Assembly: GCF_000165835.1 (NCBI RefSeq)
Contig: NC_014640.1
Span: 1,488,001-1,552,000, forward strand
Origin: Achromobacter xylosoxidans A8
GTDB taxonomy: Bacteria; Pseudomonadota; Gammaproteobacteria; Burkholderiales; Burkholderiaceae_B
Reading direction: 5' to 3'
DNA: 64,000 nt
How positions within the stretch are numbered: position 1 is the stretch's first letter; every line of letters begins with the position of its first letter. The notes under the pieces were generated by a model. That model ran no database searches. It saw only the letters and a program-made list of their open reading frames with translations, and had not been told where the DNA came from. The position numbers and the translations under genes were made by a program. This document shows positions 2,173 through 17,186 of this stretch, one piece after another.

Positions 2173-2188
2173 AAATTGGCGCCAATTT
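2173..2188. promoter_or_regulatory. operator palindrome, site 1 of 3 (TTGGCGCCAA)
   Basis: AAATTGGCGCCAATTT is a perfect 16-bp palindrome centred about 78 bases before the hydrolase start. The 10-bp core TTGGCGCCAA recurs exactly at 7451-7460 and 17177-17186, both also upstream of genes. I infer a shared transcription-factor operator; the best candidate regulator is the GntR protein encoded at 6695-7315. Confidence 0.7.
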
Positions 2189-2258
2189 ATGTGATCATTA
2201 TTTCGACCACCGGCATAAACCATGCGTCCGCCCGCGCGGCCATGGAAACGAGGAAACC

Positions 2259-3128
2259 ATGCAGTCCAACGCAGCACTCGCCATCCAGCCCGACGCCGCC
2301 CGCGCGCGGGCCATGTACGACCTGGGCCACAGCACCGTCTTTGCCGCCCGCTCCGACCCGCGCTTTTCCTATTGCACCTATGTGCCGCCGCACATCGACA
2401 GCGCCAGGCATCCGATGCAGCTGGTGGTGATCATGCACGGCACCGGCCGCGCCTTCGTGGAATACCGCGACGCGTTCGCGGAGTTCGCCCGCTGGAACGA
2501 CTGCATCGTGCTGTGCCCGCTGTTCCCCGTGAGCCCGCTGGGCGACGGCAACCGCGACGGCTTCAAGCAATTGCGCGAAGGCGACATCCGCTATGACGAG
2601 ATCCTGCTCGACATGGTGGCGGAAGTGGGCGAGAAGTTCGGCTGCGATTTCTCGCGCTTCGGCTTGTTCGGCTACTCGGGCGGCGGCCAGTTCGTGAACC
2701 GTTACGCCTACCTGCACCCGGAAAGCCTGTGGGCGGTGTCGATCGGCGCGCCGGGCTCGGTCACGCTGCTGGATCCCAGCCAGGATTGGTGGGTGGGCGT
2801 GCGCGACGCGGAGGCCCGTTTCGGCAAACGCATCGACATCGAAGCGCTCAAGCAGGTGGCGGTGCACATGATCGTGGGCAAGGCCGACCTGGAAACCTGG
2901 GAAATCACCCATCGCGAAGGCGGCAAGTTCTTCATGCCCGGCGCGAACTCGGCGGGCAACACGCGCCCTGAGCGTCTTGAGTCGCTGCGCCGTTCGTTCG
3001 AAGCCCAGGGCGTGAACGCGGTGCTGGACGTGGTGGAAAACGTGCCGCACGACGGCTTGAAATGCGTGGGCCAGGTGCAGGACTTCCTGGCCGCCGCCTT
3101 GCGCAAGCTGCGACATGAAGGCAACTGA
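2259..3128 (+). CDS. alpha/beta hydrolase in an ABC-transporter operon
   Basis: A 289-residue alpha/beta-hydrolase-fold protein. The nucleophile elbow is GYSGGG with Ser140, preceded by the oxyanion strand VVIMHGTGRAF (about 55-66); a late VPHDGL (about 270) can supply the catalytic His. No signal peptide is seen, so it is cytoplasmic. The start is supported by AACGAGGA a few bases before ATG. The ABC permease genes follow after 61 bases on the same strand, and a strong palindromic operator sits upstream. The layout suggests that it hydrolyses a compound imported by the downstream transporter, for example an ester or amide of a peptide-like ligand. The substrate cannot be read from sequence; dienelactone-hydrolase-like or esterase roles remain possible. 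Confidence 0.78.
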   Translation: MQSNAALAIQPDAARARAMYDLGHSTVFAARSDPRFSYCTYVPPHIDSARHPMQLVVIMHGTGRAFVEYRDAFAEFARWNDCIVLCPLFPVSPLGDGNRDGFKQLREGDIRYDEILLDMVAEVGEKFGCDFSRFGLFGYSGGGQFVNRYAYLHPESLWAVSIGAPGSVTLLDPSQDWWVGVRDAEARFGKRIDIEALKQVAVHMIVGKADLETWEITHREGGKFFMPGANSAGNTRPERLESLRRSFEAQGVNAVLDVVENVPHDGLKCVGQVQDFLAAALRKLRHEGN

Positions 3129-3189
3129 GACCGGCGGACGCGGCGCTTGCGGGCATCCGCGGGTCCGCGACCAGGAATAGGAGAGGGGC

Positions 3190-4134
3190 ATGCTGCGTTT
3201 CGCGCTATCCCGTATCGTCATGGCCATACCGACACTGCTGATCGTGGCGGTGGCGGTGTTCGTGATGATCCGGCTCATACCGGGCGATCCTGCCCAACTG
3301 CTGCTGGGAGACCTGGCAACGCCGGCCGCGCTGGCCGACCTGCGGGCGCGGCTGGGGCTGGACCAGACCTGGCTGACCCAGTTCGGCATCTGGTTCGGCA
3401 ATATGCTGCACGGGGATCTGGGTTCGTCCATCAACACCGGCCAGCCGGTGTTGCCGCTGGTGTGGGACCGCTTCCTGATCAGCGGCCGCGTGGTGCTGGT
3501 AGCGGTGCTGTTCGCCGCGCTGGTAGCGGTACCGGCCGGCATGATCGCCGCCTGGAAGCAGAACAAGGCGCCGGACCTGTTCCTGGTGGGCGCGGCCACG
3601 CTGCTGGTGTCCATTCCGACCTTCTGGCTGGGCCTGCTGCTGCTGATCTTCTTCGGCCTCAAGCTGCAATGGCTGCCGGTGGTGGGCTATGTCTCCATCG
3701 GCGAGGACTGGAAGGCCGGCCTGCTGTACCTGGCCATGCCCATCCTGACCCTGTTCCTGCATGAGATCGGCGTGCTGATGCGCATGGCGCGGGCCAGCAC
3801 GCTGGAAGTGCTGCGGCTGGACTACATCACCCATGCGCGCGCCAAGGGCCTGTCGGAATCCGCGGTGCTGATGCGCCATGCGTTCCGCAACGCCTTCGGC
3901 CCGACCTGGACGCTGATCGGCCTGGTGCTGGGCAACCTGCTGGGCGGCATTGCGGTGGTGGAGACCGTGTTCACCATTCCCGGGCTGGGACGCCTGCTGG
4001 TGGACTCCATCTTTGCCCGCGATTACCCCGTGATCCAGGGCTGTCTGTTGTTCGTGGGCGTGGTCTACGTGATCGTGAACCTGTTCATCGACCTTTGCTA
4101 TCCCCTCTTTGACCCGAGAGTGACCGCCGAATGA
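3190..4134 (+). CDS. peptide-type ABC transporter permease, DppB-like
   Basis: A 314-residue inner-membrane permease of the DppB/OppB family. MLRFALSRIVMAIPTLLIVA is the usual first membrane segment and RLIPGDPAQLLLG the usual first periplasmic motif. The EAA loop that contacts the ATPase lies near residues 208-235 (DYITHARAKGLSESAVLMRHAFRNA, split here by eye). The C-terminus DLCYPLFDPRV is standard for the family. GGAGAGGGG precedes the ATG. The stop overlaps the next gene's start in an ATGA junction, so translation is coupled. It forms the import pore together with the DppC-like subunit. There is no binding-protein gene in this operon; two paralogous candidates lie at 7502 and 15934. Confidence 0.92.
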   Translation: MLRFALSRIVMAIPTLLIVAVAVFVMIRLIPGDPAQLLLGDLATPAALADLRARLGLDQTWLTQFGIWFGNMLHGDLGSSINTGQPVLPLVWDRFLISGRVVLVAVLFAALVAVPAGMIAAWKQNKAPDLFLVGAATLLVSIPTFWLGLLLLIFFGLKLQWLPVVGYVSIGEDWKAGLLYLAMPILTLFLHEIGVLMRMARASTLEVLRLDYITHARAKGLSESAVLMRHAFRNAFGPTWTLIGLVLGNLLGGIAVVETVFTIPGLGRLLVDSIFARDYPVIQGCLLFVGVVYVIVNLFIDLCYPLFDPRVTAE

Positions 4135-4952
4135 AAAAGCGAATTGCAGCCAACGCGCTACTGGGCGGCGCGATCGTGGCGCTGATGATAGTGGCGGCCG
4201 TCATGGGCGCTTTCTGGACGCCGCATGATCCGCTCAAGATCAACTTCGTGGCGCGGCTCAAGCCGCCCGGAGGCGAATTCCTGCTGGGCACGGACGAGTT
4301 CGGGCGCGACGAGCTGTCTCGCCTGCTGGCTGGGGCGTCCAGCAGCGTCTGGATCAGCCTGCTGACCGTGACCTTCGCCATCGTCGCGGGCACCCTCATC
4401 GGCACGCTCACGGGCTTTGTGCGGGGCTGGACCGACCGCATCATCATGGCCTTCAACAATGCGCTGCTGGCATTCCCGGGGCTGCTGCTGGCCTTGGGCC
4501 TGCTGGCGGTGGTGGGCGCCAACAAGTACGGCATCATCCTGGCGCTGGGCCTGGCTTACACGCCTTCGGTGACGCGCATCGTGCGCGGCACGGTGCTGTC
4601 GCTGCGCGAGAAGGAGTTCATCGAATCCTCGCGCGTGCTGGGCAATTCCGAGCTCTACACCATGTTCCGCCACGTGCTGCCGAATTGCGTGGCGCCGCTG
4701 ACGGTGCTGGCGACCTCCATGTTCGGCTGGGTCATCCTGGCGGAAAGCGCGCTGTCCTTCCTGGGCCTGGGCGTGCCGCCTCCCGCACCCACCTGGGGCA
4801 ATATGCTGGCCGCCGCCCGGCCGTTCATGGCGCAGGCTTCCTATCTTTCCATTCTTCCCGGCCTGGCCATCGCGCTCGCGCTGCTGGGAATCAATCTGCT
4901 GGGCGATGCGGTGCGAGACCGTTTCGATCCCCGCATGAGGGGCGTGCAATGA
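4131..4952 (+). CDS. peptide-type ABC transporter permease, DppC-like
   Basis: A 273-residue second permease of the DppC/OppC family. It has an N-terminal membrane segment, the typical LGTDEFGRDELSRLLAGA motif near residues 48-65, and an EAA loop around EFIESSRVLGNSELYTMFRHVLPN (residues about 160-183). The end LGDAVRDRFDPRMRG is canonical. It starts within the stop of the upstream permease and its own stop overlaps the ATPase start, both as ATGA junctions, so three subunits are made from one coupled message. Substrate class is dipeptide/oligopeptide/nickel-type; the actual ligand is unknown. Confidence 0.92.
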   Translation: MKKRIAANALLGGAIVALMIVAAVMGAFWTPHDPLKINFVARLKPPGGEFLLGTDEFGRDELSRLLAGASSSVWISLLTVTFAIVAGTLIGTLTGFVRGWTDRIIMAFNNALLAFPGLLLALGLLAVVGANKYGIILALGLAYTPSVTRIVRGTVLSLREKEFIESSRVLGNSELYTMFRHVLPNCVAPLTVLATSMFGWVILAESALSFLGLGVPPPAPTWGNMLAAARPFMAQASYLSILPGLAIALALLGINLLGDAVRDRFDPRMRGVQ

Positions 4953-6604
4953 GCGCACTGGTATCGGTATCGAATCTGTCGCTGACCGTCGGCCACGGCG
5001 GCCGCGAGATCGTCAGCGGGGTGTCCTTCGAGGTGGCTCCCGGCGAGATGGTCGGCATCGTCGGCGAATCCGGCAGCGGCAAGACCCAGGCCGCCCGCGC
5101 CATCATGGGCCTGACGCCATCGCCGCTAGTAGTGGCGGGCGGCTCCATCAAGTTCGAAGGCGTGGAGGTGACCCAGGCGTCGCCCGCTGCGCTGCGCAAG
5201 CTGCGCGGCGCGCGCATCGGCATGGTGTTCCAGGAGCCGATGACTTCGCTGAATCCGTCCATGCCCATCGGCCGGCAACTGGACGAGGGCTTGAGGCTGC
5301 ACCGCAAGGACCTTTCTACCGCAGCACGCCGCGAACGCATCCTGGAAATGCTGCGCCGGGTTGGCATCCGCGACCCCAAGGGTGCGATGGAAGCTTGGCC
5401 GCACGAGTTCTCCGGCGGCATGCGCCAGCGCATGATGCTGGCCTCCGTGATGCTGCTGGAGCCGGCGCTGCTGATCGCGGACGAGCCCACCACGGCGCTG
5501 GACGCGGTGGTGCAGCGCGACGTGCTGGAACTGATGGTGGACCTGACGCGCGAACACCATACCGCGGTGCTGATGATCAGCCACGACCTGCCGATGGTGG
5601 CGCGCTACACCGAACGCATGGTGGTGATGCAGCACGGCAAGGTGCTGGAAACCGGCGCCACGGCCGCCATCCTGGAACGGCCGCAACATCCCTACACGCG
5701 CAAGCTGCTGGACGCCATGCCGCGCCGGTTGCCGGCGCGACAGCTGGGCAAGGAGGCGCCCATCGTCGAGGTCAAGAACCTGGTGGTGGACTACGCCGGG
5801 CACCAGCGCTTGTTCTCGCGCACCGGCGCCAAGCGCGCGCTCAACGGCATCGACCTGCACGTCAAGCCGCGCGAAGTGGTGGCGGTGGTGGGCGGTTCGG
5901 GTTCGGGCAAGACCACGCTGGGCCGGGCCATTGCCGGATTGCTGGCGCCTACCTCCGGTCAGATCCTGTTCCGCGGCCAGCCCGTGAACCGCCGCTCGGC
6001 CTCCTGGCGCGACTACCGGCTGAATTGCCAGATGGTGTTCCAGGACCCGTACTCCTCGCTGGACCCGCGCATGACCATCGGCCAGCTGGTGGGCGAGGGC
6101 CTGCGCATGCTGGACGACATGCCCGCGGCAGACAAGCGCCGCCGGGTGGACGAGGTGCTGGCCGAAGTGGGCCTGGGCTCCGAATACGCCAAGCGCTATC
6201 CCCACGAAATGTCGGGCGGGCAGCGCCAGCGCGTGGCGATCGCCCGCGCCATCGTGCGCCGTCCGGCCTTCGTCATTGCCGACGAACCGGTGTCCGCGCT
6301 GGACGTGACTGTGCGCGCGCAGGTGCTGGACCTGTTCGCCGACCTGCAGGAGCGCCACGGCTTTTCCTGCCTGTTCATCAGCCATGACCTGGGCGTGGTG
6401 GAGCAGGTGGCCGATCGCGTGGTGGTGATGCGCGACGGCGGCATCGTCGAGCAGGGCTCGCGCGACGCCGTGTTCGACCAGCCGCAGGAGGAATACACCC
6501 GCAGCCTGCTGTCGGCGATTCCGGCGCTGGAATCCACCGAAACCGGTGGCGTGCGGCTGCGTTGGCGGCTGGACCAGCAGGAGCCGTTGCGGGCCAGTGC
6601 CTGA
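4949..6604 (+). CDS. fused double ABC ATPase, DppD-DppF-like
   Basis: A 551-residue protein with two complete ABC ATPase domains in tandem. Domain 1 has Walker A GESGSGKTQ (about 36-44), signature SGGMRQR and Walker B LLIADEPTTALD. Domain 2 has Walker A GGSGSGKTT, signature SGGQRQR and Walker B VIADEPVSALD. Both carry the oligopeptide-family C-terminal extension (HPYTRKLLDAMP and EEYTRSLLSAIP). Each half would normally be a separate gene (DppD, DppF); fused forms are common in beta-proteobacteria and look functional here. The ATG at 4949 overlaps the permease stop. It energises import through the two permeases upstream. The gene is followed by a GC-rich hairpin and then the gntR gene. Confidence 0.93.
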   Translation: MSALVSVSNLSLTVGHGGREIVSGVSFEVAPGEMVGIVGESGSGKTQAARAIMGLTPSPLVVAGGSIKFEGVEVTQASPAALRKLRGARIGMVFQEPMTSLNPSMPIGRQLDEGLRLHRKDLSTAARRERILEMLRRVGIRDPKGAMEAWPHEFSGGMRQRMMLASVMLLEPALLIADEPTTALDAVVQRDVLELMVDLTREHHTAVLMISHDLPMVARYTERMVVMQHGKVLETGATAAILERPQHPYTRKLLDAMPRRLPARQLGKEAPIVEVKNLVVDYAGHQRLFSRTGAKRALNGIDLHVKPREVVAVVGGSGSGKTTLGRAIAGLLAPTSGQILFRGQPVNRRSASWRDYRLNCQMVFQDPYSSLDPRMTIGQLVGEGLRMLDDMPAADKRRRVDEVLAEVGLGSEYAKRYPHEMSGGQRQRVAIARAIVRRPAFVIADEPVSALDVTVRAQVLDLFADLQERHGFSCLFISHDLGVVEQVADRVVVMRDGGIVEQGSRDAVFDQPQEEYTRSLLSAIPALESTETGGVRLRWRLDQQEPLRASA

Positions 6605-6644: not shown

Positions 6645-6694
6645 ATACTTACGCATAAAATACGCGCTTCGGATTTGATAGACGGGAGTGGTCC

Positions 6695-7315
6695 ATGCCG
6701 AAATCGGCAACGGCACAGCCCGGCCTGGTTGATCGCATCGCCCACGATATTCAGGCGGGTGTGTACGGTCCCGGCGCCTGGCTGAAACAGATCGACCTGC
6801 AGGAACGCTACGACGCCAAGCGTCTGGACGTCCGGCGGGCGCTAGACCAATTGGCCGCCAAGCGGCTGATCGCGCACATCCCGAACCGGGGCTATCACGT
6901 CTACGCCATGGATCCGGACCAGCACTTGCAGATCCGCGACATCCGCATCCTGCTGGAAACGGGCGCGGCGGCGGACCTGATGCCCAACGTCACGGCGGCC
7001 AAGGTGCGGGCCTTGCGCACCCTGGCCGAACGCTTCGCCAAGCTGCTGCAGGATGGCACGCTGCTGGAGCAGTACGAGGTCAACCTGGCTTTCCATGCGG
7101 GCATGTATGACATGTGCCGCAACCGGGAATTGACCGCGCTGATCCAGGAAACCCGGGCCCGCGGCCCCGCGGCGCCGGCCAAGGAATGGGTGACGCGCTC
7201 GCGCATCGAGATTTCCGCGCGCGAGCACTTCGACATGGTCGACGCGCTGGAAGCGCGCGACGTCAAGCGCCTGCAGAAAATCATTGCCCAGCACGTGGGG
7301 CAGGACATCTCCTGA
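6695..7315 (+). CDS. GntR-family (FCD type) transcriptional regulator of the transporter locus
   Basis: A 206-residue regulator. The N-terminal winged helix spans about residues 8-70 (DRIAHDIQAGVYGPGAWLKQ, then QERYDAKRLDVRRALDQLAAKRLI and IPNRGYHV). The helical FCD effector domain follows, with likely metal or acid ligands in NLAFHAGMYD (about 130-139) and a late REHFDMVDALEARD. It lies immediately after the hydrolase-ABC operon and before a binding-protein gene, and the palindrome TTGGCGCCAA occurs upstream of both. I infer that it controls this locus and possibly the C45 hydrolase operon at 17 kb. The direction of control and the effector are unknown. The start ATG at 6695 gives a usual-length HTH; a weak SD (GGGAGTGG) precedes it. 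Confidence 0.85.
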   Translation: MPKSATAQPGLVDRIAHDIQAGVYGPGAWLKQIDLQERYDAKRLDVRRALDQLAAKRLIAHIPNRGYHVYAMDPDQHLQIRDIRILLETGAAADLMPNVTAAKVRALRTLAERFAKLLQDGTLLEQYEVNLAFHAGMYDMCRNRELTALIQETRARGPAAPAKEWVTRSRIEISAREHFDMVDALEARDVKRLQKIIAQHVGQDIS

Positions 7316-7347
7316 GACGTTTTCCGCGACTCGCGCTACGCACATGC

Positions 7348-7378: not shown

Positions 7379-7450
7379 CATTCCGGCGGCGCTTTCAGGG
7401 ATACCCCCGATAGCGGCGTGGCGCATTCCGCCCATAATGAGCAGCTAATT

Positions 7451-7460
7451 TTGGCGCCAA
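7451..7460. promoter_or_regulatory. operator palindrome, site 2 of 3 (TTGGCGCCAA)
   Basis: TTTTGGCGCCAATAT is a 15-base match, core and flanks, to the site at 17177. The centre is about 46 bases before the binding-protein ATG, a position where a bound repressor would block the promoter. Confidence 0.7.
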
Positions 7461-7501: not shown

Positions 7502-9061
7502 ATGCACCACGTTTTCGTACCCAGAGCGCTCGCGCTCAGCCTGGCGCTGGCCGCCGCCGGTTCGGCCCAGGCCGCGCTGCTCACCATTGCCCAGCCGGCC
7601 GACATCCGCTCGACCAACCCCGGCGTCAACCGCGACAACACCACCGACGGCGTGGTGCTGAACATCGTGGAAGGTCTGGTCGGCTACCGCGAAAACGGCA
7701 CCGTGGGCCCCTTGCTGGCCAAATCCGTGGATCTGTCGGAAGACGGCCTGACCTATACCTTCAAGCTGCGCGACGGCGTCAAGTTCCACAACGGCGCCAC
7801 GCTGACCTCGGCCGACGTGATCTGGAACTGGCAGCGCTACATGGATCCCAAGACGGATTGGCGCTGCCGCAGCGACTTCGACGGCCGCAACGGTCTGAAG
7901 GTGACGGACGTCTCCGCGCCCGACGCGCAGACCGTGGTGATGAAGGTGGACCGCAAGTCGGCCGTGTTCCTGGATTCGCTGGCCCGTACCGACTGCGGCA
8001 TGACGGCCATCATCTCCAAGGATTCGGTGGCGGCCGACGGTTCCTGGATCAAGCCGGTGGGTACGGGCCCCTACATGTTCAAGGACTGGAAGCGCGGCGA
8101 ATACACCTTGCTGTCCGCCTTCAAGGATTACGCCTCGCCTGGGGGCGACAAGCCGGACGGCTACGTCGGCTCCAAGCGTCCGCTGGTGGAGGAAGTGAAG
8201 TTCCTGGTCGTTCCCGATCCTTCGACCTCGAAGGCCGGCCTGCTGTCGGGCGCCATCGACGCCGCGCAGATCACCAACACCGACGTGGGCGAACTGAAAA
8301 GCGCGAAGAACCTGGCGGTGTTCAGCCCGCATGACGCCGTCAAGCACGTGCTGCTGTTCCAGACCGAGGATCCGGTGCTGAAGAACGTCAAGATCCGCCA
8401 GGCCATCGCCGCGTCGCTGGATATCCCCCAGGTTGTGGCCGCGGCTTCCGAAGGCCTGGGCCAGCTGAACAACTCCGCCGTCTACGCGGGTTCGGCCTAT
8501 TACAAGGATGCGGAAAAACGCGGCTACAAATACGATCCGGCGCGCGCGCAGCAATTGCTGAAGGAAGCCGGCTATAAGGGCGAGCCCGTGGTCATCTACG
8601 CGAACAAGCGCGCCCACGTGCCCAGCTACCAGGTGGCGGTGATCGCGCAGGCCATGATGCAGTCCGTGGGCATCAACGCCAAGATCGAGGTGCTGGAATG
8701 GGCCACGCAGCTGGACCGCTACAACACCGGCAAGTACCAGATCAGCTCGTTCTCGTTCTCGTCGCGCCTGGACCCCTCGCTGAGCTTCGAGCAGTTCTCG
8801 GGCGACAAGGCCAAGCAGCCGCGCAAGGTCTGGGACGATCCCGCGGCGCAGAAGCTGATCGATGAGAGCTTCCTGGAATCCGATCCGGCCAAGCGCCAGG
8901 CGCTGTTCGACCAGCTGCATGCCCTGATGCTGGAACAGACGCCGATGCTGATGCTGTACAACGGCGCGGACGCCTGGGCTTCCAGCAAGCGCGTCGAAGG
9001 ATTCTCGGTCTGGGAAGGCAAGCCGCGGGCCTGGGAGACCAAGGTCCGGGACGGCAAGTAA
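7502..9061 (+). CDS. ABC transporter substrate-binding protein (SBP family 5), paralogue 1
   Basis: A 519-residue periplasmic binding protein of the DppA/OppA cluster. A Sec signal peptide (about residues 1-25, RALALSLALAAAGSAQA) precedes mature ALLTIAQPADIRSTNPGVNRD. The domain order is standard: an entry motif YTFKLRDGVKFHNG near residue 85, then TGPYMFKDWKRGEYT and the C-terminal LHALMLEQTPMLMLYN. The ATG at 7502 is preceded by GGGGAG at good distance. It is closely related to the protein at 14369-15934 (shared ADIRST.PGVNRD, VVEWATQLDRY-like and KAKQPRKVWD segments). Neither binding protein lies in an operon with its own permeases, so both probably deliver ligand to the transporter at 3190-6604. 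The ligand is unknown. Confidence 0.9.
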   Translation: MHHVFVPRALALSLALAAAGSAQAALLTIAQPADIRSTNPGVNRDNTTDGVVLNIVEGLVGYRENGTVGPLLAKSVDLSEDGLTYTFKLRDGVKFHNGATLTSADVIWNWQRYMDPKTDWRCRSDFDGRNGLKVTDVSAPDAQTVVMKVDRKSAVFLDSLARTDCGMTAIISKDSVAADGSWIKPVGTGPYMFKDWKRGEYTLLSAFKDYASPGGDKPDGYVGSKRPLVEEVKFLVVPDPSTSKAGLLSGAIDAAQITNTDVGELKSAKNLAVFSPHDAVKHVLLFQTEDPVLKNVKIRQAIAASLDIPQVVAAASEGLGQLNNSAVYAGSAYYKDAEKRGYKYDPARAQQLLKEAGYKGEPVVIYANKRAHVPSYQVAVIAQAMMQSVGINAKIEVLEWATQLDRYNTGKYQISSFSFSSRLDPSLSFEQFSGDKAKQPRKVWDDPAAQKLIDESFLESDPAKRQALFDQLHALMLEQTPMLMLYNGADAWASSKRVEGFSVWEGKPRAWETKVRDGK

Positions 9062-9163: not shown

Positions 9164-10159
9164 TCAGTCGAGCTTGACGCCCGCCTGCTTGATCACGGCG
9201 GCCCAATCCCGGACTTCGGCGCCCAGGAACGTGCTCAGCTCGGCCTGCGTGGACGGCGCCAGGATCAGGCCCTCGTCGGCAAAGCGCTTGCGCAGCTCGG
9301 CGTTGGTCAGCACTTTCTCCAGCGCGGGTTGCAGGCGCTGCACCACTTCCGCGGGCACGCCCGCAGGCGCCATCAGGCTGTACCAGGTGGTGGCTTCCAG
9401 CCCCTTCACGCCCTGCGAGGCCGCGGTCGTCACTTCAGGCAGGGCCGGCGACTTTTCCTTGCCCGTCACTGCGGCGGCGCCGACCCGGCCGCCCTTGTAC
9501 TGCGGCAGCATTTCCACCACCTGCGTCACGCCCATGCTCAATTCGCCCGAGGCCACCGCCAGCAGCACCGGCGCGCTGCCCTTGTAGGGCACGTGCACCA
9601 GCTTGCCGCCCGTGGCCAGGTTCAAGACTTCGCCCGTCAGGTGGGTGATGCTGCCCGCGCCGGAAGAACCGAAGGTCAGCTTGCCCGGATCCTTGTTCGC
9701 CAGCGCGATCAGCTCTGGCAGGTTCTTCGCCTGCAGGCCCGGATTGACCGCGAACACCAGCGGACTCTTGCCCACCAGCGTGATGGGCGTGAAATCCTTC
9801 ACCGGGTCGTAGTTCAGGTTCGGATACAGGCTGGGCGCGATCGCCAGCGTCGACACGTTGCCCAGCAGCAGCGTGTAGCCGTCCGGCTCCGCGCGCGCCA
9901 CCGCATTGGTGCCGATGGTGCCGCCCGCGCCGGCGCGGTTTTCCACGATGACCTGCTTGCCCAGCGTGTCGTTCAGCTGCTGCGACAGCGCGCGCGCCAA
10001 GGTGTCGGCCGCGCCGCCGGGCGGGAAGGGCACGACGATGCGGATGGGTTTGCTGGGATAGGCCTCGGCTTGCGCTGCCGGGCTCAGGCCCAGCGCCAGC
10101 AACCCGGCCAGGGCCGTGGCCAGCAGGCCGCGGCGATTGATTTTCTGGTACTTCGACAT
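9164..10159 (-). CDS. Bug/TctC-family periplasmic solute-binding protein
   Basis: A 331-residue extracytoplasmic receptor of the Bug (TctC) family, very expanded in Bordetella and Achromobacter. A signal peptide covers about residues 1-31 (RRGLLATALAGLLALGLSPAAQA). The mature start AYPSKPIRIVVPFPPGGAADTLAR is the family signature, followed by DGYTLLLGNVSTLAIAPSLY and YDPVKDFTPITLVG. CAGGAGAG precedes the ATG. It is the last gene of a minus-strand group with gntR, allA and puuE, so its ligand may be a ureide or related carboxylate. No TctA/TctB membrane components are in the window, so it must use a partner encoded elsewhere or serve in sensing. Confidence 0.9.
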   Translation of the reverse strand: MSKYQKINRRGLLATALAGLLALGLSPAAQAEAYPSKPIRIVVPFPPGGAADTLARALSQQLNDTLGKQVIVENRAGAGGTIGTNAVARAEPDGYTLLLGNVSTLAIAPSLYPNLNYDPVKDFTPITLVGKSPLVFAVNPGLQAKNLPELIALANKDPGKLTFGSSGAGSITHLTGEVLNLATGGKLVHVPYKGSAPVLLAVASGELSMGVTQVVEMLPQYKGGRVGAAAVTGKEKSPALPEVTTAASQGVKGLEATTWYSLMAPAGVPAEVVQRLQPALEKVLTNAELRKRFADEGLILAPSTQAELSTFLGAEVRDWAAVIKQAGVKLD

Positions 10160-10202
10160 GCTGCTCTCCTGATGAGAAAACGGGGGCGATGCAGAAAACG
10201 AA

Positions 10203-11129
10203 TCAGCGCGCGGCGCCTTGGGCGGCCGGATGGTGCGCATGCCAGTGGCGCGCGATGTCGGCGCGGCGGCAGACCCAGACGTCGCTGTGCGCCGCCACGT
10301 GGTCCAGGAAGCGCGCCAGGCCTGCCGCGCGTCCGGGCTGGCCGACCAGCCGCAGATGCAGTCCCACGGACATCATCTTGGGAGCCGTGGCGCCTTCCTC
10401 GTACAGCATGTCGAAAGCATCGCGCAGGTACTCGAACAGGTCCTGCCCCGTGGCCATGCCGCCGCGGATGAACTTGGCGTCGTTGTTGGCCAGGCCGTAA
10501 GGCACCAGCAGGTGGGGCTTGCCGCCGACCTGGGTCCAGTAGGGCAGCTCGTCGTTGTAGGTATCGGAGTCGTAGAGGAAACCGCCTTCCTCGGCCAGCA
10601 GCGCGCGGGTGTTCAGGCTGGGGCCGTAGCGGCAATACCAGCCCAGCGGCCTGGAACCGACCGTGCGGGTCATCGATTCCACCGTGCGGCGGATGCGCTC
10701 GCGTTCCTCTTCCAGCGTCAGGTTCTGGTGCCGTTCCCAGCGCCAGCCGTGCGCACAGACGTCATAGTCCGCTGCCTTGATGGCCTCGCAGACTTCGGGA
10801 TTGCGCTCCAGCGCCAGGCCGCAGCCCAGTATCGTGGCCGCCATGCCGCGTTCCTGCAGCAGGCGGTGCACGCGCCAGAAGCCGATCCGGCTGCCGTACT
10901 CGAACATCGATTCGGCCGCCAGGTCGCGCCCCGCGAAGCCGCCCGCGCCGCCCTCGGTCAGCCCGGTTTCGGATTCAGCATCGCCGTCCGGCACCGAAGG
11001 CTCGCCGCCTTCCTCGTAGTTGATGCACAGGTTCAGCGCCAGGCGCGCGCCGCCCGGCCATTTGGGATCGGGCGGGTTAGCGCCGTAGCCGACAAAGTCG
11101 CGGCGCAAGTGCGGATGATCGGTAGTCAT
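10203..11129 (-). CDS. puuE: PuuE-type allantoinase (polysaccharide-deacetylase fold)
   Basis: A 308-residue protein that follows the PuuE pattern closely: RDFVGYGANPPDPKWPGGARLAL at the start, NYEEGGEP near residue 38, FEYGSRIGFWR (about 76-86) and HWHAHHP at the end. PuuE enzymes hydrolyse allantoin to allantoate with a NodB-like fold but without metal. Consistent with that, the usual HxxxH motif reads HGWRW here (His127, Trp131) and the catalytic Asp position is in NYEE. It lies 10-25 bases after allA on the same strand, supporting a purine-ureide pathway. An alternative ATG at 11144 adds five residues; I chose the start nearest the conserved N-terminus. The protein could act on a related cyclic ureide or imide. 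Confidence 0.82.
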   Translation of the reverse strand: MTTDHPHLRRDFVGYGANPPDPKWPGGARLALNLCINYEEGGEPSVPDGDAESETGLTEGGAGGFAGRDLAAESMFEYGSRIGFWRVHRLLQERGMAATILGCGLALERNPEVCEAIKAADYDVCAHGWRWERHQNLTLEEERERIRRTVESMTRTVGSRPLGWYCRYGPSLNTRALLAEEGGFLYDSDTYNDELPYWTQVGGKPHLLVPYGLANNDAKFIRGGMATGQDLFEYLRDAFDMLYEEGATAPKMMSVGLHLRLVGQPGRAAGLARFLDHVAAHSDVWVCRRADIARHWHAHHPAAQGAAR

Positions 11130-11154
11130 AGCGGGGCTAGCCATCGGTGAGGAA

Positions 11155-11664
11155 TCAATCGGAAAGCGAAACCAGGGCGTGCGGAGCCGGCGCCTGCCAG
11201 AACTCGTCGTCATCGCCGCGGCCGGTCTGGCCCATCAGGACCAGGAACTCCGCCGGCCCCTGCAACACGGTCAGGCCGTGATGCCAGGCACCCACGCGGT
11301 AGCACACGCCCTGGCTGCCGGTCGCGAGAAACGCTTCCAGCCGCGCCATGTCGGGCAGATCGTCGGCCCCGGTAGGCGCCACCACCACCAGATAGGGCGA
11401 GTCCGTCAACGGCACGAAACTCTGCGCCGCATAGCGATGGCGTTCCATCAGCCGGATCTCGACCGGCCCCGGCGGCGCCGCCTGCACCCGGCTGACCCAG
11501 CTTGCGTGCCGCACGACCTCGGGTCCATGCCGCATCGGCTCGGTCAGATAGTGACGACGCTCCGCGCCCTGATGCGCAATTACCTCCCCATACGGCGCGA
11601 ACGCCTCGGGCGTCAGCCGCCGCGGGCGGATCATGCGCGGCGAACCGCCAAGGTCAGGCGCCAT
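11155..11664 (-). CDS. allA: ureidoglycolate lyase, AllA family
   Basis: A 169-residue cupin-type protein. LTPEAFAPYGEVI near residues 17-29 is the AllA opening; ERHRYAAQSFVPL (about 73-85), YLVVVAPTGADDLPD and GVCYRVGAWHHGLTVL (about 120-135) are the core cupin motifs. The enzyme splits ureidoglycolate to glyoxylate and urea, the last step of ureide breakdown, in the cytoplasm. Its start overlaps the end of gntR by 11 bases; a shorter start at 11634 (MIRPRR) is possible and would remove the overlap. Next to puuE it makes a two-step ureide module. Allantoate amidohydrolase is not in the window. Confidence 0.85.
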   Translation of the reverse strand: MAPDLGGSPRMIRPRRLTPEAFAPYGEVIAHQGAERRHYLTEPMRHGPEVVRHASWVSRVQAAPPGPVEIRLMERHRYAAQSFVPLTDSPYLVVVAPTGADDLPDMARLEAFLATGSQGVCYRVGAWHHGLTVLQGPAEFLVLMGQTGRGDDDEFWQAPAPHALVSLSD

Positions 11665-12292
11665 GGCTCAGATACCCCAGCGAATTCACATAGCTGCGCC
11701 GCACGTTCTCCAGATGCGCCGCCATCGCCTGCCGCGCGCGGGCCGATTCGCCCGACAACAGCGCCTGCACGATCGCCAGATGTTCTTCCCGCGCCTGCAC
11801 CTGCCGCTGCGGCAAGCGCTCCACATCGCACATCCGCACCTGCCGCCGCGTCGCCGTGATCATGGTCGCCAGATTCCGGTTGCCGCAATACGCCGCCACC
11901 AGATCGTGCAGCGCGTTATCGACCTCCCAATCCGACTTCTCATCCGCCGTCTTCGCATCCAGCAAGGCCTGCAGCCGCGCCCGCAGCCCCTCCAGAGGCT
12001 CCGCCGGAATCCGCCCGGTCGCCATCGCCGCCGCTTCGCTCTCCAGCAGGCTGCGGATCTGCAGCAGTTCCAGCAGATCCGTCACGCCGAACGAGCGCAC
12101 CACGATGGACCCGTTGGACAGCCGCTCCAGCATCCCTTCGCCCAGCAGCCGGTTCATGGCCGCGCGCAAAGGCGTACGCGACACCTCCAGCTCATCCGCC
12201 AGCCGCCTTTCCTCCAACACTTCCCCCGCCGGAATCCGGCGCGAAACGATCTGGTCCAGCAGGGTTTGATAGGTACGTTGTGTAGCGTTCAT
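11654..12292 (-). CDS. GntR-family (FCD type) regulator of the ureide operon
   Basis: A 212-residue regulator with an N-terminal winged helix (about residues 1-70: TYQTLLDQIVSRRIPAGEVLEE, RRLADELEVSRTPLRAAMNRLLGEGML) and a C-terminal FCD effector domain (LQIRSLLESEAAAMA, then DNALHDLVAAYCGNRNLATMI). It is the first gene of the minus-strand gntR-allA-puuE-bug operon. The start at 12292 was chosen because upstream codons of the open frame do not look like HTH sequence. An inverted repeat 81 bases upstream (12373-12397) could be its own operator. The effector is probably a ureide intermediate, by context only. Confidence 0.85.
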   Translation of the reverse strand: MNATQRTYQTLLDQIVSRRIPAGEVLEERRLADELEVSRTPLRAAMNRLLGEGMLERLSNGSIVVRSFGVTDLLELLQIRSLLESEAAAMATGRIPAEPLEGLRARLQALLDAKTADEKSDWEVDNALHDLVAAYCGNRNLATMITATRRQVRMCDVERLPQRQVQAREEHLAIVQALLSGESARARQAMAAHLENVRRSYVNSLGYLSHGA

Positions 12293-12372
12293 GTGGGTTG
12301 CAGCGTAAGAAAAAGGCGCGAACGACAGAGACTCCCAATTGCCGTCCCGCGCAATGGATGAGAAGGTACCCC

Positions 12373-12397
12373 ACTGGTATCCCAAAGAGATACCAGT
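12373..12397. promoter_or_regulatory. inverted repeat upstream of gntR-allA-puuE-bug
   Basis: ACTGGTATC (12373-12381) and GATACCAGT (12389-12397) form perfect 9-bp arms around CCAAAGA. A further GTATCCC follows at 12399-12405. The form and place fit an autoregulatory operator for the GntR protein, or overlap with its promoter. Confidence 0.6.
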
Positions 12398-12689: not shown

Positions 12690-12751
12690 GGGCCCCGCAA
12701 ATCTCTCCACCACCCACCGGCCTGACGGCGCGACAAGCCAAGATGAAGGCA

Positions 12752-12915
12752 GCCCGGCGGCGCGGGCCCTGAGGCTGCGAGCAACCTCGATGCGCCCGAG
12801 GGAATCGGAAGGAGCCGCCGCAGGCGGTGACGACGATGACGACGGGGCAGTCCGGAGCGAAGGCTCCGGACCGCAATCGTGGGCGCGAGCAGCCTCAGGG
12901 CCCGCGCCGCCGGGC
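12752..12915. repeat. 164-bp element with 27-bp perfect inverted ends and three internal hairpins
   Basis: Bases 12752-12778 are the exact reverse complement of 12889-12915 (27 of 27). Inside are three smaller stems: CCTCG/CGAGG (12785-12789 and 12797-12801), CCGCC/GGCGG (12815-12819 and 12823-12827) and GTCCGGAGC/GCTCCGGAC (12850-12858 and 12863-12871, loop GAAG). Folded as RNA this is a long closing helix with a three-hairpin junction. It may be a structured RNA in the 3' region of the upstream binding-protein message or a small non-autonomous mobile element. No target duplication was seen around it. Confidence 0.6.
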
Positions 12916-12957
12916 GACCTACGAAGACAACACCTGCCGCAGCAAAAACAGCAAAGA

Positions 12958-12965
12958 CAACGAAG
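12958..12965. repeat. IS target-site duplication, left copy
   Basis: CAACGAAG directly precedes the IS end and is repeated exactly at 14355-14362. Eight bases is the usual duplication size for IS256-family elements. Confidence 0.8.
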
Positions 12966-14354
12966 GGGAATGTCAGAAATTTTGTGTTTTAGGCATTGTT
13001 CTGACATTGCATTGTTTACTGGCTGCCCAGTTGCGGGTCGATACGGTTCCGGGTAAATCGGTCTTCGTAGAGGATGGCGAACTGCTGCATAGCCTCGGTC
13101 CAATGATGTGTGGCCGAACCCCATTTAACGGTGATGTTTCGCAGCGCCAACCAGAGCAGCTTAATCGCCGCGTCGTCGGTGGGGAAGTGGCCGCGTGTCT
13201 TGATGATTTTGCGTAGCTGCGCGTTCACGCTCTCTATCGCGTTCGTCGTGTAGATCACGCGTCGGATCGCAGGTGGGAACACGAAGAATGGGATGACGTG
13301 TTCCCAGGCGCCTTTCCAGGCCTTGACGATCAAGGGGTACTTCACGCCCCACGGGCTCTTGGCAAACTCATCGAGAGCCTGTTGTGCGGCCTCGGTGCTG
13401 ACCGCAGCGTAGATCGGGCGCAACGCCGTGGCGATTGTCCGGCGTTCTTTCCAGCCTGCATAACCCAAGCTATTGCGGATCAGATGCACGATGCACGTCT
13501 GCAACGTGGTGGCCGGGAACACGACCTCCAGCGCCTGGGGCATCCCCTTTAAACCGTCAGTCACCGCGATCAGGATGTCCTGGACGCCTCGCGTTTTTAG
13601 GTCGTTGAACACCCGCATCCAGAACCTCGCGCCTTCGGTGGTCTCGATCCACAGGCCCAGAATCTCGCGTGTGCCATCGGGTAGCACACCCAACGCCAGA
13701 TAGACGGCCTTGTTCTGCACCAAGCCCTCGTCGCGGATCTTGACCCGTAGCGCGTCGAAGAACACCACGGGGAACATCGGCTCCAGCGGCCGGTTCTGCC
13801 AGGTCTGCACTTCTTCCATGACCTCTTCGGTCACCGAACTGATGAACTCCGGCGACACGTCGGTGCCGTACTGTTCGTCCAGAAACGCCCGGATCTCGCG
13901 CACGCTCATGCCACGGGCGTACATCGCGATGATCTTGTCATCAAAACCGGTAAACCGGCGTGCGTGCTTGGGGATCAGGATCGGCGCAAAGGTGCCGTCC
14001 CGATCCCGGGGAATATCCAGCTTCAGCGGGCCGTCATCGGTCAGCACCGTCTTGCTGCTCTTGCCGTTGCGCTGGTTGGTCGACGCCTGCGGTCGAGTCT
14101 GGCCCGCCGGGTAGCCCAGGTGTCGGCCCAGTTCGGCACCCAGAGCTCTCTCGATCAGCGCCTTCTTCAACAGCATGAACGTGTCCTGCACCGCCTCGGC
14201 TGTCATCGGCCCGGTTACAAGTTCATCGAGCAACTGCTCTGCACTGGCCGGTAGCGCCGGCGGGCTGGACTGCTTCGCGGACTTCGGATTGCGTGCCATG
14301 AGCGGTCTCCTTGAAAACCATCATAGGCCTGCACACAAAAATCCTGACACTCCC
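12966..14354 (-). mobile_element. IS256-family insertion sequence, complete
   Basis: A 1389-bp element. The terminal inverted repeats begin GGGAATGTCAGAAATTTTGT (from 12966) and, on the other strand from 14354, GGGAGTGTCAGGATTTTTGT; they match at most positions through about base 28. A single full-length transposase lies between them and the element is flanked by 8-bp direct repeats CAACGAAG. Everything expected of a recently active copy is present. It inserted 6 bases past the stop codon of the binding-protein gene at 14369, so that gene is intact but its native 3' region has been separated from it. Confidence 0.92.
13016..14299 (-). CDS. IS256-family (mutator-type) transposase
   Basis: A 427-residue transposase with the three DDE residues in recognisable context: Asp182 in FFDALRVKIRD, Asp248 in AVTDGLKGMPQ and Glu356 in TTNAIESVNAQLR. 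Other family landmarks are the N-terminal ALGAELGRHLGYP, RNGKSSKTVLT and IPRDRDGTFAPILIPKH segments and the Cys/His insert TCIVHLIRNS near residue 268. Length is within the usual range and there is no frameshift, so it should be active. It catalyses excision and reinsertion through a circular intermediate in this family. It is the only gene of the element. Confidence 0.95.
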   Translation of the reverse strand: MARNPKSAKQSSPPALPASAEQLLDELVTGPMTAEAVQDTFMLLKKALIERALGAELGRHLGYPAGQTRPQASTNQRNGKSSKTVLTDDGPLKLDIPRDRDGTFAPILIPKHARRFTGFDDKIIAMYARGMSVREIRAFLDEQYGTDVSPEFISSVTEEVMEEVQTWQNRPLEPMFPVVFFDALRVKIRDEGLVQNKAVYLALGVLPDGTREILGLWIETTEGARFWMRVFNDLKTRGVQDILIAVTDGLKGMPQALEVVFPATTLQTCIVHLIRNSLGYAGWKERRTIATALRPIYAAVSTEAAQQALDEFAKSPWGVKYPLIVKAWKGAWEHVIPFFVFPPAIRRVIYTTNAIESVNAQLRKIIKTRGHFPTDDAAIKLLWLALRNITVKWGSATHHWTEAMQQFAILYEDRFTRNRIDPQLGSQ

Positions 14355-14362
14355 CAACGAAG
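14355..14362. repeat. IS target-site duplication, right copy
   Basis: CAACGAAG, identical to 12958-12965, immediately outside the right IS end. Confidence 0.8.
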
Positions 14363-14368
14363 ACAATA

Positions 14369-15934
14369 TCAAGGCGCCGCCACCCGCTCCACCTCCCATG
14401 CCCGCGGCTTCTTAACCGCCCAAGGCTGATACCCCCTGATATCCGCCCGATAAGCCCCAATATCCAACCCGTTATACAAAGGAATACTAGGCACATCCGC
14501 CAGGAACAGCTTATGCAGCTGGTCAAACGAAGCCTGCCGCTTCGCATGATCCGTATCCGACGCCGCCGCCTCGATCAGCTTCTGCGCCTCCGGGTTGTCC
14601 CAAACCTTGCGCGGCTGCTTCGCCTTATCCCCCGTCACCATCTCGTAATTCAGCGCCGCATCCAGCCGCGCAGAATAAGGGAAGGTCATCATCTGGTAAG
14701 TGCCCGCGTTATAGCGGTCCAGCTGTGTCGCCCACTCCACCACCGACAACTGCGCATTGATGCCAACCGCCTGCAGCATCGCCTGAATGATGACCGCGGA
14801 GTTATACGACTGCGGATAGCGCTTGGTCGTCAGGATCGCAAGTTCCTGCCCCTTGTATCCGGCTTCCTTCAGCAGCTTCTGCGACTGGGCCGGATCGTAA
14901 TTCCAGCCCTGCTTCTGCGCCGCGTCGTAGTAGGGCGACACCAGCGGCACAATCGAATTGTTCGGCTGCGCCAGGCCTTCCGTCACCGCCGCCGCCAACT
15001 GCTGGTAATCGATCGCGTGGGCCAACGCCTGGCGCATCTTGGGATTGGCCAGCACCGGATCCTTGGTCTGCATCAGCAGCGCCGTCATGCTCATCACCGG
15101 CGCATGCGCCACCTTGACGTTCGGCGTGCCTTGCAACACCGGCACGTCGCTATTGGACACGTCCTCGATGATGTCGATATTGCCCCGCTGCAAGGCCGCC
15201 TTGGCGGTGGAATCGTCCGGCACGATCAGGAAGCGTACCTCGTCCACCAGCGGCCGCTTCGATCCCGTGTAGCCGTCGCGCTTGCCGTCCAGGTTTGAAT
15301 AGCCCGCGAACTTGGTCAGGCGTATGTACTCGCCGCGCTTCCATTCCGCCAGCTCGAACGGACCGGTGCCGATGGGCTTGTCCCAAGCGCCGTCCGCGCG
15401 CACCGAATCCTTGGACAGGATGCCGGTGCCGCCGCAGTCGGCGCGCGCCAGCGTCGCCAGGAACAGGCTGCTGGGCTTTTCGATGTGGTAGACCACCGTC
15501 TGCGCGTCCGGCGCTTCCACGCCCGTGACCTTGACCGTGCCACGTCCGTCGAATTCGCTGGCGCAGCGCCAGCCCGAATTGGCCGCGGTGTAGTGCTGCC
15601 AGGTCCACAGCACGTCGGCCGAGGTCATGGGCTTGCCGTTATGGAACTTGATGCCTTCGCGCAGCTTGAAGGTATAGGTCTTGCCGTCCGGGCTGATGTC
15701 CACCGACTTGGCCAGCAGCGGGCGGACCTCGGCGTCCTCGCCATAGGCCACCAGGCCCTCGACGATGTGCAGCACCACCGCGTCGCTATTGCTGTCGCGG
15801 TTGACGCCGGGTTCGGTGGAGCGGATGTCGGCCGTGAGCGAGATGCGCAGCGGCGGGGCGGATTGCGCCCAGGCCGCGCCGGCCACGGCGCCCAGCGCCA
15901 GCGCAACCGCGGCGCTCAATAGATTTTTATTCAT
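14369..15934 (-). CDS. ABC transporter substrate-binding protein (SBP family 5), paralogue 2
   Basis: A 521-residue periplasmic binding protein. The signal peptide spans about residues 1-23 (LLSAAVALALGAVAGAAWAQ); the mature part begins near SAPPLRISLTADIRSTEPGVNRD. It matches the protein at 7502-9061 along its length (YTFKLREGIKFHNG, KDSV.ADG.W.KP.GTGP, SKRPLV.EV.FL.VPD, QLDRYN.G.YQ, DKAKQPRKVWD). It lies 36 bases after the C45 hydrolase on the same strand, so the two form an operon under the palindrome at 17177. It probably feeds the ABC transporter at 3190-6604. An IS256 element has inserted 6 bases beyond its stop without damaging the coding region. Confidence 0.9.
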   Translation of the reverse strand: MNKNLLSAAVALALGAVAGAAWAQSAPPLRISLTADIRSTEPGVNRDSNSDAVVLHIVEGLVAYGEDAEVRPLLAKSVDISPDGKTYTFKLREGIKFHNGKPMTSADVLWTWQHYTAANSGWRCASEFDGRGTVKVTGVEAPDAQTVVYHIEKPSSLFLATLARADCGGTGILSKDSVRADGAWDKPIGTGPFELAEWKRGEYIRLTKFAGYSNLDGKRDGYTGSKRPLVDEVRFLIVPDDSTAKAALQRGNIDIIEDVSNSDVPVLQGTPNVKVAHAPVMSMTALLMQTKDPVLANPKMRQALAHAIDYQQLAAAVTEGLAQPNNSIVPLVSPYYDAAQKQGWNYDPAQSQKLLKEAGYKGQELAILTTKRYPQSYNSAVIIQAMLQAVGINAQLSVVEWATQLDRYNAGTYQMMTFPYSARLDAALNYEMVTGDKAKQPRKVWDNPEAQKLIEAAASDTDHAKRQASFDQLHKLFLADVPSIPLYNGLDIGAYRADIRGYQPWAVKKPRAWEVERVAAP

Positions 15935-15970
15935 CGATACGTCTTCCTGGGGTTGCGCGGGCGCGCCGCG

Positions 15971-17113
15971 TCAGGCGGCAGCCAGCAGTTCGGGTTCGGC
16001 GCTCAGGCTGTAGCGGGTGAAGCTGCGGTTCAGCGCCGGCAGCGGCGCGACTTCCATCAGGCCGGCCTCGGGCTCCATGATCACCATCGCCACCGTGGCC
16101 GACAGGTTGTCGTGGCTGCCGGGGCGCGGCGGACGGCAGACGGAATAGGGTGCGCCGAAGTCGTCGAACAGCGCGCGCTTCAAGTCTTCGCGCGTCAGCT
16201 TGGACTGCTCGTTCAGCAGCCGGCGCACGCGCCAGTCGCGATAGGCGCTTTCCGGCGTGCTGGCGCGGCCGGTGTCGCGCAGCTTGGTCAGGGCCACGTC
16301 GCTGACCCAGTGGTTGGCGTGGACGATCAGATCGTCGCTACCCGGGTAGATGGGGAAGGCTTCGTCGGTGGTGCATTCATAGTCCACGCCGAAGCCCGCG
16401 GCCATGCCGATCATGATGTTGTTGGAGCAGGACTTGGGCGTGGTCGCCACGGCCTTGATCGCCAGCGCGAAGTGTTCCTGTTCCAGCACCTTGCGGCGGA
16501 TCAGCGACAGCGGCACGCCCAGCTGGCGGAAGTCGCGGTCGGATTCCAGGTAGTTGGCGGTGATTGATACGCCGGCGCTGTTCAGGCCGCTGCGCGCCAG
16601 GCCGCCGGCTTCGACGAAGGTCAGGATGTCGGGGCCGTTGTCGTTCCGCACGCGAAGCACGATGGCGGTCTCGGCGCATTCCGCGCGCCAGTCCCAGTTC
16701 TGCCCATGGATCAGGCGGCCATTGGCCGAACGCGTCGGCAGGATCAGCGCGCCGGTGCAGCCGTCGCCCGGCTCCAGTTCGGCGGCCTTCTTCTTTTCGG
16801 CGCGGGCCTTGGCGATGACTTCCGTGCGCGCGTTCACCATCACGATGTCTTCGAAAGGCACGTCGGCGCCTGCCGCAATGCCGCGCATTTCTTCCAGGTA
16901 ATGCGGCGCGAAGTTCTCGATCTCGCGGGCGAAGCCGTTGATCAGCTGGGTGCGCGCCATGGCGTCATAGCCCAGGTCGACCAGGGTCTGGCCGTACATC
17001 TTGGCGCTCTTGCGCACGCGATCAGCGGCTTGCTGGCCGTAGGAGCGGCCGCGGGCCTCGGGCGCGCCCGAAACCGATACGAAGGGAAATTGGGTGATCT
17101 GGGTCATGGACAT
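15971..17113 (-). CDS. C45-family Ntn hydrolase (acyl-CoA:6-APA acyltransferase-like)
   Basis: A 380-residue member of peptidase family C45. The processing site is DGCTGALIL with Cys119, the residue that becomes the N-terminal nucleophile after self-cleavage. NWDWRAECAETAIVLR (about 143-158) and GLARSGLNSAGVSITANYL (about 175-193) are conserved core strands, and SHDNLSATVAMVIMEPEAG occurs near the C-terminus. The family includes penicillin acyltransferase and amide hydrolases acting on N-acyl amino acids and small peptides. There is no signal peptide, so it works in the cytoplasm. It heads an operon with a peptide-type binding protein, and its promoter region carries the shared TTGGCGCCAA palindrome. 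I infer that it splits an amide in the imported ligand. A start two codons later is possible. Confidence 0.85.
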   Translation of the reverse strand: MSMTQITQFPFVSVSGAPEARGRSYGQQAADRVRKSAKMYGQTLVDLGYDAMARTQLINGFAREIENFAPHYLEEMRGIAAGADVPFEDIVMVNARTEVIAKARAEKKKAAELEPGDGCTGALILPTRSANGRLIHGQNWDWRAECAETAIVLRVRNDNGPDILTFVEAGGLARSGLNSAGVSITANYLESDRDFRQLGVPLSLIRRKVLEQEHFALAIKAVATTPKSCSNNIMIGMAAGFGVDYECTTDEAFPIYPGSDDLIVHANHWVSDVALTKLRDTGRASTPESAYRDWRVRRLLNEQSKLTREDLKRALFDDFGAPYSVCRPPRPGSHDNLSATVAMVIMEPEAGLMEVAPLPALNRSFTRYSLSAEPELLAAA

Positions 17114-17176
17114 AGGGCGGCGCGCCGCGCCGCAATCTGGGGTGGGAATTGGATGGCGAAAAAATGTTAGCTTATT

Positions 17177-17186
17177 TTGGCGCCAA
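17177..17186. promoter_or_regulatory. operator palindrome, site 3 of 3 (TTGGCGCCAA)
   Basis: TTTTGGCGCCAATAT here is the same 15 bases as at the 7.45-kb site, and both have AGCT shortly before. The centre is about 68 bases upstream of the C45 hydrolase start on the minus strand. Confidence 0.7.

Follow-up and report, generated by a model that had tools for sequence, protein, structure and literature searches.

Analysis of a stretch of 64,000 nucleotides from Achromobacter xylosoxidans A8 (NC_014640.1, positions 1,488,001 to 1,552,000; hereafter the window) revealed that the 10-bp palindrome TTGGCGCCAA occurs at exactly three positions, 2176-2185, 7451-7460 and 17177-17186. Each copy stands upstream of genes for a putative system of peptide-type import and hydrolysis, which also includes the gene of a GntR/FCD regulator, GntR(6695). 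The features concerned, in window coordinates, are as follows.

2176..2185: operator 1, TTGGCGCCAA inside AAATTGGCGCCAATTT, upstream of the alpha/beta-hydrolase-opp-gntR operon
2259..3128, plus strand: alpha/beta hydrolase, PahZ1/LpqC-like, with the putative triad Ser140, Asp210 and His264
3190..4134, plus strand: OppB-type permease, from profile matches
4131..4952, plus strand: OppC-type permease, from profile matches
4952..6604, plus strand: fused OppD-OppF ATPase, from profile matches
6695..7315, plus strand: GntR/FCD regulator GntR(6695), VanR group, with a six-helix effector domain; proposed binder of the three operators
7433..7438, plus strand: CATAAT, a -10-like hexamer, 12 nt before operator 2
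7451..7460: operator 2, TTGGCGCCAA, upstream of binding protein 1
7502..9061, plus strand: family 5 substrate-binding protein 1 (SBP1)
14369..15934, minus strand: family 5 substrate-binding protein 2 (SBP2), 57% identical to protein 1
15971..17113, minus strand: C45 autoproteolytic Ntn hydrolase, predicted nucleophile Cys119 in GDGCT
17177..17186: operator 3, TTGGCGCCAA, upstream of the C45-SBP2 operon

The regulator gene starts about 90 bp past oppDF and is probably co-transcribed with it. With a family 5 binding protein, two BPD permeases and OppDF-type ATPases, the transport genes have the composition of an Opp/Dpp ABC importer, and neither permease reached a substrate-specific NCBIfam cut-off. 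A preliminary description of this DNA, made from the letters alone, had counted one permease/ATPase set, two binding proteins and two hydrolases, and this inventory was correct.

Dinucleotide shuffles of the window gave a mean of 0.15 copies of TTGGCGCCAA, and none of 100 shuffles reached three, which bears out the earlier expectation of well under one chance copy; the three exact positions, without a further copy in the window, were confirmed. The sites are all intergenic, as had been described, while the distances to the start codons, previously put at 46-78 bases, came to 41-73 bp on recounting: 73 bp separate operator 1 from the ATG at 2259 and 41 bp operator 2 from that at 7502; operator 3 lies 63 or 69 bp from the minus-strand ATG at 17113 or 17107. 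Operators 2 and 3 share 16 contiguous identical bases (not 15, as first counted) on the same strand, though their genes point in opposite directions.

Throughout the whole genome (7.36 Mb), 13 exact copies of TTGGCGCCAA were found, compared with 3 for the reversed control string. Ten of these lie outside the window, eight within open reading frames (ORFs) and two in intergenic DNA, and the bare 10-mer was rejected as a genome-wide regulon marker because of the eight coding copies. Two A/T bases on both sides accompany only four of the 13 copies, namely those of the window and a fourth that precedes a GH31 gene. The specific signal is thus the AT-flanked, promoter-placed TTGGCGCCAA and not the bare 10-mer, and its fuller form is ATTGGCGCCAAT. 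Many copies inside coding regions had been named beforehand as an argument against a regulon; this applies in part to the bare 10-mer and not to the AT-flanked form. The coding copies would fit a chance or non-regulatory repeat, such as a restriction-site-like GGCGCC or a hairpin, and site 1 is taken for a stem by a terminator scan, which gave fewer hits overall than in shuffles. We consider such an origin highly improbable, as the motif recurs across many genera with hardly any copies of the control motifs, the sites are lost together with the regulator, and the flanks of sites 1 and 2 are less conserved than the palindrome itself.

Within the genus, GntR(6695) is present in 33 of 43 genomes, and an exact TTGGCGCCAA was found downstream of gntR in all 30 loci fetched from these 33, at the place where the first binding protein starts (position checked in the named loci introduced below). 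The AT-flanked form WWWTTGGCGCCAAW has at least two matches in each of the 33 regulator-positive genomes and none or one in the 10 regulator-negative genomes (Fisher 5e-10 over the 43 genomes, ancestry not corrected); where there is one (G015, G037), the exact site precedes the GH31 gene. The hydrolases follow the same distribution. C45 orthologues (at least 92% identity) occur in exactly the same 33 genomes and in none of the 10 others, one of which (G024) has a 45% relative, and alpha/beta hydrolase orthologues (at least 85%) occur in 32 of the 33 and again in none of the 10, the sole regulator-positive genome without one being a 57% complete assembly. The alpha/beta hydrolase copy in G032 carries an in-frame stop. 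Cassette, regulator and sites come and go together across the genus genomes. Among the named loci, the nearest regulator is that of A. xylosoxidans strain B_1 (L061), whose identity rounds to 100% and which differs from GntR(6695) by one residue in the printed N-terminal part.

Some further loci in the genus deserve mention. G006 (C23, about 48914-54402) and likewise G016, G027, G029 and G031 have another cassette, in which an alpha/beta hydrolase gene of 51-53% identity and a C45 gene of 67-68% identity lie a few kb apart. The site before the GH31 glycoside hydrolase gene (L001:1501; G000:C1:874651) reads ATTTGGCGCCAAAT, and its exact 10-mer is found in 31 of 33 regulator-positive genomes versus three of the nine regulator-negative genomes in which the gene was found (Fisher 4e-4); its flanking bases are conserved too, ancestry is not controlled in this comparison, and this gene is at most a possible further member of the regulon. 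Another possible member is a pair of an MFS transporter and an HlyD-type gene, which have TTGGCGCCAA between them in four close genomes only (L002:1501, L083, L084 and L085).

Outside the genus, 14 loci (L044-L057; stretches of about 19 kb each, not whole genomes) with GntR proteins of 53-75% identity showed a similar gene arrangement. In 13 of them the exact TTGGCGCCAA stands before the hydrolase, and 11 also carry it before SBP1, C45 or both, whereas Candidimonas L048 and L049 have it before the hydrolase alone. In L056 (Corticimicrobacter), the hydrolase and SBP1 are preceded by TTGGCACCAA and C45 by the reverse complement of this sequence; selection by a single DNA-binding protein would be expected to produce such a parallel change at all three promoters. 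The idea that the same palindrome would precede orthologues in related genomes was thus borne out, exactly in 30/30 genus loci and at 13/14 outgroup hydrolases.

A wider set of named loci comprised the best 80 of 188 regulator relatives from a scan with the regulator alignment and included Achromobacter, Bordetella, Candidimonas, Corticimicrobacter, Advenella, Pandoraea, Microvirga, Azospirillum, rhizobia, Pseudomonas and other genera. All 80 have a site matching at least 9 of the 10 positions of ATTGGNNCCAAT (ATTGG-NN-CCAAT) with GG and CC kept, a form that was run without a control and takes in some coding copies too. The strict ATTGG..CCAAT gave 84 copies in 67 of the 80 loci. Each of eight control palindromes stayed between 0 and 7 copies, first-order simulations (20 runs) came to 1.25 copies on average, and the canonical GT/AC form ATTGT..ACAAT occurred once in the 80 loci. 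According to a simple gene caller, whose starts are over-long, 39 of the 56 sites of L122-L169 lie outside genes.

Additional copies were noted beside other genes in a few relatives. Ahead of a FecA-like TonB-dependent receptor gene (L064:3876-6281, minus strand) lies an exact TTGGCGCCAA at 6236, divergent from an AsnC/Lrp gene with a site copy of its own, and the same two sites occur in L065 and L068. An AsnC/Lrp regulator with an operator just upstream stands beside the hydrolase-opp operon at L064:6383-6808, at L046 (about 14502-15161) and at L047:4265-4684, assigned by Pfam for L064 and L047 and by resemblance for L046. At L069:5361 and L088:1729, the site is flanked by genes for a secretory-lipase-like protein and for a beta-lactamase-fold serine hydrolase, the pair being assigned by Pfam in G012 and by resemblance only in G011.

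The putative regulator itself was assigned from its domains and its predicted structure. The N-terminal winged helix of GntR(6695) matches PF00392 with 36.2 bits (cut-off 27) and the C-terminal FCD domain PF07729 with 72.9 bits (cut-off 24.3), and the AlphaFold2 model places six effector-domain helices from residue 74 onwards (mean pLDDT 84.8). Six rather than seven such helices are what we take to be the mark of the VanR group, and both profiles and model indicate that GntR(6695) is an FCD protein of this group. Arg43, Asn130, His134, His178 and His200 are invariant in 13 regulator sequences, and the last four fit the Asp/Asn-His-His-His metal-ligand set, equivalence with the Agrobacterium fabrum repressor Atu1419 being set by residue order. 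ATTGG-NN-CCAAT does not conform to the FadR-type operator GT-N2/3-AC, to which published exceptions exist, and GntR(6695) would accordingly be classed as an FCD protein with a variant operator instead of a canonical FadR-type one.

The recognition helix and the site were found to vary together. Among the 49 loci L121-L169 (ancestry uncorrected), Leu, Met or Ile at residue 44 accompanies the centre CG in 17 of 17 cases, and Asn the centre TA in 10 of 10. In our own mapping, residue 44 is position 39 of the helix-turn-helix (HTH) in published numbering; the mapping used the numbered FadR contact table in the available portion of PMC4494728, with Arg43 set equal to FadR Arg45 and no gap assumed. 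As far as that portion goes, HTH position 39 correlates with the motif centre, Asn there preferring A/T, and position 28 is usually Arg, which prefers G/C (PMC4494728). The pairing of Asn44 with a TA centre agrees with this preference, and the Ile or Val that replaces Arg at position 28 would fit a T at the base where Arg prefers G/C. Position 40 is Asp or Glu in 79 of the 80 loci, L159 having Gln instead, and at position 43 Arg or Lys stands where FadR has Glu. In GntR(6695) numbering the changed helix residues are Ile33, Asp/Glu45 and Arg/Lys48, with the helix pattern xRx[DE][VI]R[RK].

Conservation before orthologues, co-occurrence in the genus and co-variation of helix and site together point to a three-operon regulon under GntR(6695), as had been proposed, and the initial choice of regulator was very probably right. 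We are confident, on these comparative grounds, that GntR(6695) binds TTGGCGCCAA at the three promoters and most likely acts as a repressor. Evidence for the mode of action comes from the CATAAT hexamer, which lies 11-12 nt upstream of operator 2 in 30/30 genus loci; its position would put the transcription start a few bases before the operator, and this favours repression.

Several observations weigh against this interpretation. None of the three sites showed a consensus promoter in a sigma-70 scan, so that repression is argued from CATAAT and from precedents. The named loci were chosen by their regulator and the statistics are uncorrected for kinship. The C45 genes of Candidimonas L048 and L049 have no site within one mismatch; in Pandoraea and Pseudomonas the motif was seen only before C45 and not before the hydrolase or SBP1; and the 36%-identical relatives L058-L060 have no ATTGG..CCAAT, two of them carrying TTTATGCGCATAAA by eye and the third a partial match between regulator and hydrolase. 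Lastly, Pro at residue 44 occurs with five centres among 18 of the L121-L169 loci and the helix TRPEVRR with four (CG, CA, TA and AA), so the helix does not fix the centre.

The weak promoter elements by consensus, together with the conserved bases on both sides of the palindrome at site 3, would also suit a regulator that binds the site and activates, or that represses only some of the three promoters. We judge this unlikely, though worth bearing in mind: the hexamer places the start of transcription just before operator 2, against activation, and the two characterised structural neighbours, Atu1419 and DhdR of Achromobacter denitrificans, are repressors with sites on core promoter boxes, as far as the available parts of their descriptions tell.

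Alternatively, the palindrome might be bound by another protein, be it GntR2 (11654-12385), a LacI-type or an Lrp/AsnC protein, with GntR(6695) acting elsewhere. Palindromes with a central CG are used by other regulator families, the conserved copy before the GH31 gene persists in three of nine regulator-negative genomes, and in some relatives the site stands before an Lrp/AsnC gene. However, the motif is present in 80/80 loci chosen by GntR(6695) while the other neighbours change, site and helix of GntR(6695) vary together, and no exact site is listed near the Lrp orthologue of the window genome (a 72% AsnC/Lrp relative elsewhere, at C1:288931). GntR2 was rejected as regulator, since it has no match in the outgroup stretches (about 19 kb) that keep the sites. 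Altogether, we regard control by another protein as improbable.

GntR2 belongs to a purine/ureide-like cluster (window 9164-12385, minus strand) with a TctC receptor, a PuuE-like allantoinase, a ureidoglycolate-lyase-like gene and this second FCD regulator. The cluster sits between the two parts of the regulon and was not seen in many related stretches. An IS256/Mutator-type transposase (13016-14299, minus strand) lies between it and SBP2, for which the spacing in L090 leaves no room.

As for the enzymes, the alpha/beta hydrolase gave no Pfam match and its fold was taken from sequence and structure comparison, in which PahZ1 was the best match by both sequence and fold (first two distinct proteins). 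Ser140, Asp210 and His264 are invariant in 17 homologues. With 29.2 bits, it remains below the cut-off of 150 for the curated depolymerase family NF050058, and the enzyme is likened to PahZ1 and not filed in the PahZ1/short-chain polyhydroxyalkanoate depolymerase group. The C45 hydrolase reaches 291 bits against NF040521 (cut-off 85), and its D117-G118-C119-T120 is invariant in 12 sequences; autoproteolysis and amide hydrolysis are predicted from the family. A sister branch of the regulator, L136-L165, mainly from rhizobia, has the regulator divergent to an M20-type amidohydrolase and operator centres TA, CA, CG, TG and AA. Across L122-L169 the gene family divergent to the regulator is found in 29 of 48 loci, its scanned members being M20 amidohydrolases; in the sister branch polar amino-acid ABC genes follow, with an M28 peptidase family in 14 loci, the enzyme families having been assigned from scanned representatives rather than from all members. 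Both branches thus appear to pair an importer with amide hydrolases, which makes an amide-linked nutrient our best guess for the substrate. The earlier suggestion of an N-acylated or peptide-like amide fits the enzyme families and is kept as a presumption.

In the mechanism that we propose, a GntR(6695) dimer would read TTGGCGCCAA through the invariant Arg43 and the changed recognition helix, would bind the three promoters, that of its own operon included, and would repress most likely by occupying the transcription start or the bases just beyond it, from which the imported compound or a breakdown product would release it. The regulon would comprise one OppBCDF importer, two binding proteins, the PahZ1-like hydrolase and the C45 Ntn hydrolase, both hydrolases being taken as cytoplasmic, and would allow a nutrient with an amide linkage (N-acyl, beta-peptide or similar) to be taken up and cleaved. 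What the computations show is the sites with their conservation, co-occurrence and co-variation; that the protein binds them, that it represses, and what its ligand and the substrate are, are points that we infer. Beyond this locus, we lean, with some reserve, towards the view that a widespread and previously undescribed clade of VanR-type FCD repressors, with members in alpha-, beta- and gamma-proteobacteria, moved from a GT/AC to a GG-N2-CC operator by rewiring of its helix (position 28 Arg to Ile, 40 acidic, 43 Glu to Arg) and controls both the import of amide-linked compounds and their cleavage in the cytoplasm, for which unrelated enzymes are used (PahZ1-like and C45 in one case, M20 and M28 in the other).

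A palindrome first found by eye can now be described as a predicted operator, for which a regulator and three target operons are named and which extends across many genera. As the operator departs from the GT/AC boxes used for GntR/FCD prediction, standard motif searches could miss such regulons, and the paired changes of helix and site offer a testable case of evolving DNA specificity. The regulon would also point to a pathway of amide scavenging, apparently uncharacterised so far, that employs bacterial C45 and PahZ1-like enzymes; if the wider view holds, the GG-N2-CC clade would be a natural system for operator-specificity change and a ready sensor for an amide compound. We consider three things new: how broad the system is, its departure from GT/AC with matching helix changes, and the second branch. 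In the open-licence literature, no paper with both TTGGCGCCAA and GntR was found, nor any description of this regulon among the papers listed, RegPrecise lying outside the search; TTGGTACC and 'GntR family' met in one paper, as a primer and a reference title only in the part of it that was available (PMC2695467).

Several known proteins invite comparison. PahZ1 (PDB 6ve6, 9o7u), poly(aspartic acid) hydrolase-1, is a hydrolase of beta-amide poly(Asp) according to the accessible passages of PMC4456602; it is the nearest solved structure to the alpha/beta hydrolase, which differs in its identity of only about 20% and its score below the curated depolymerase cut-off. Isopenicillin-N acyltransferase (PDB 2x1d) aligns with the C45 hydrolase over residues 55-334 with DGCT at the cleavage site, although the two are distant (E 1e-21). 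For the regulator, operators of the FadR subfamily follow TKGT-N2/N3-ACMA in the available portion of PMC4494728; the half-site spacing of TTGGCGCCAA is compatible with their N2 class and the conserved G is kept, whereas G and C replace the T and A of GT/AC, and the helix has Ile/Val and not Arg at position 28, Asp/Glu at 40, and Arg/Lys instead of Glu at 43. DhdR (PDB 9jpj), from the same genus and likewise a structural neighbour, is a GntR-family repressor with a short palindrome, but its operator is GTTATCAGATAAC and not TTGGCGCCAA, and its ligand is D-2-hydroxyglutarate, to judge from the excerpt of PMC8651671. The closest parallel in design is Atu1419 (PDB 6z74, 6za3), a VanR-group FCD repressor that, in the passages available from PMC7797058, has a 10-bp palindrome, ATGTATACAT, overlapping -10 boxes, contacts operator base G3 through helix-3 Arg45 and binds zinc with an Asn-His-His-His set. 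This structural neighbour shares with GntR(6695) the GntR HTH plus FCD architecture, the 10-bp palindrome with G3, the helix-3 Arg and the metal-ligand pattern, and it differs in pathway, in identity (18-20% in Foldseek alignments) and in operator, ATGTATACAT with GT-N2-AC as opposed to TTGGCGCCAA with GG-N2-CC. The simplest account would be an Atu1419-like docking frame in which T4 and A7 of the operator have changed to G4 and C7.

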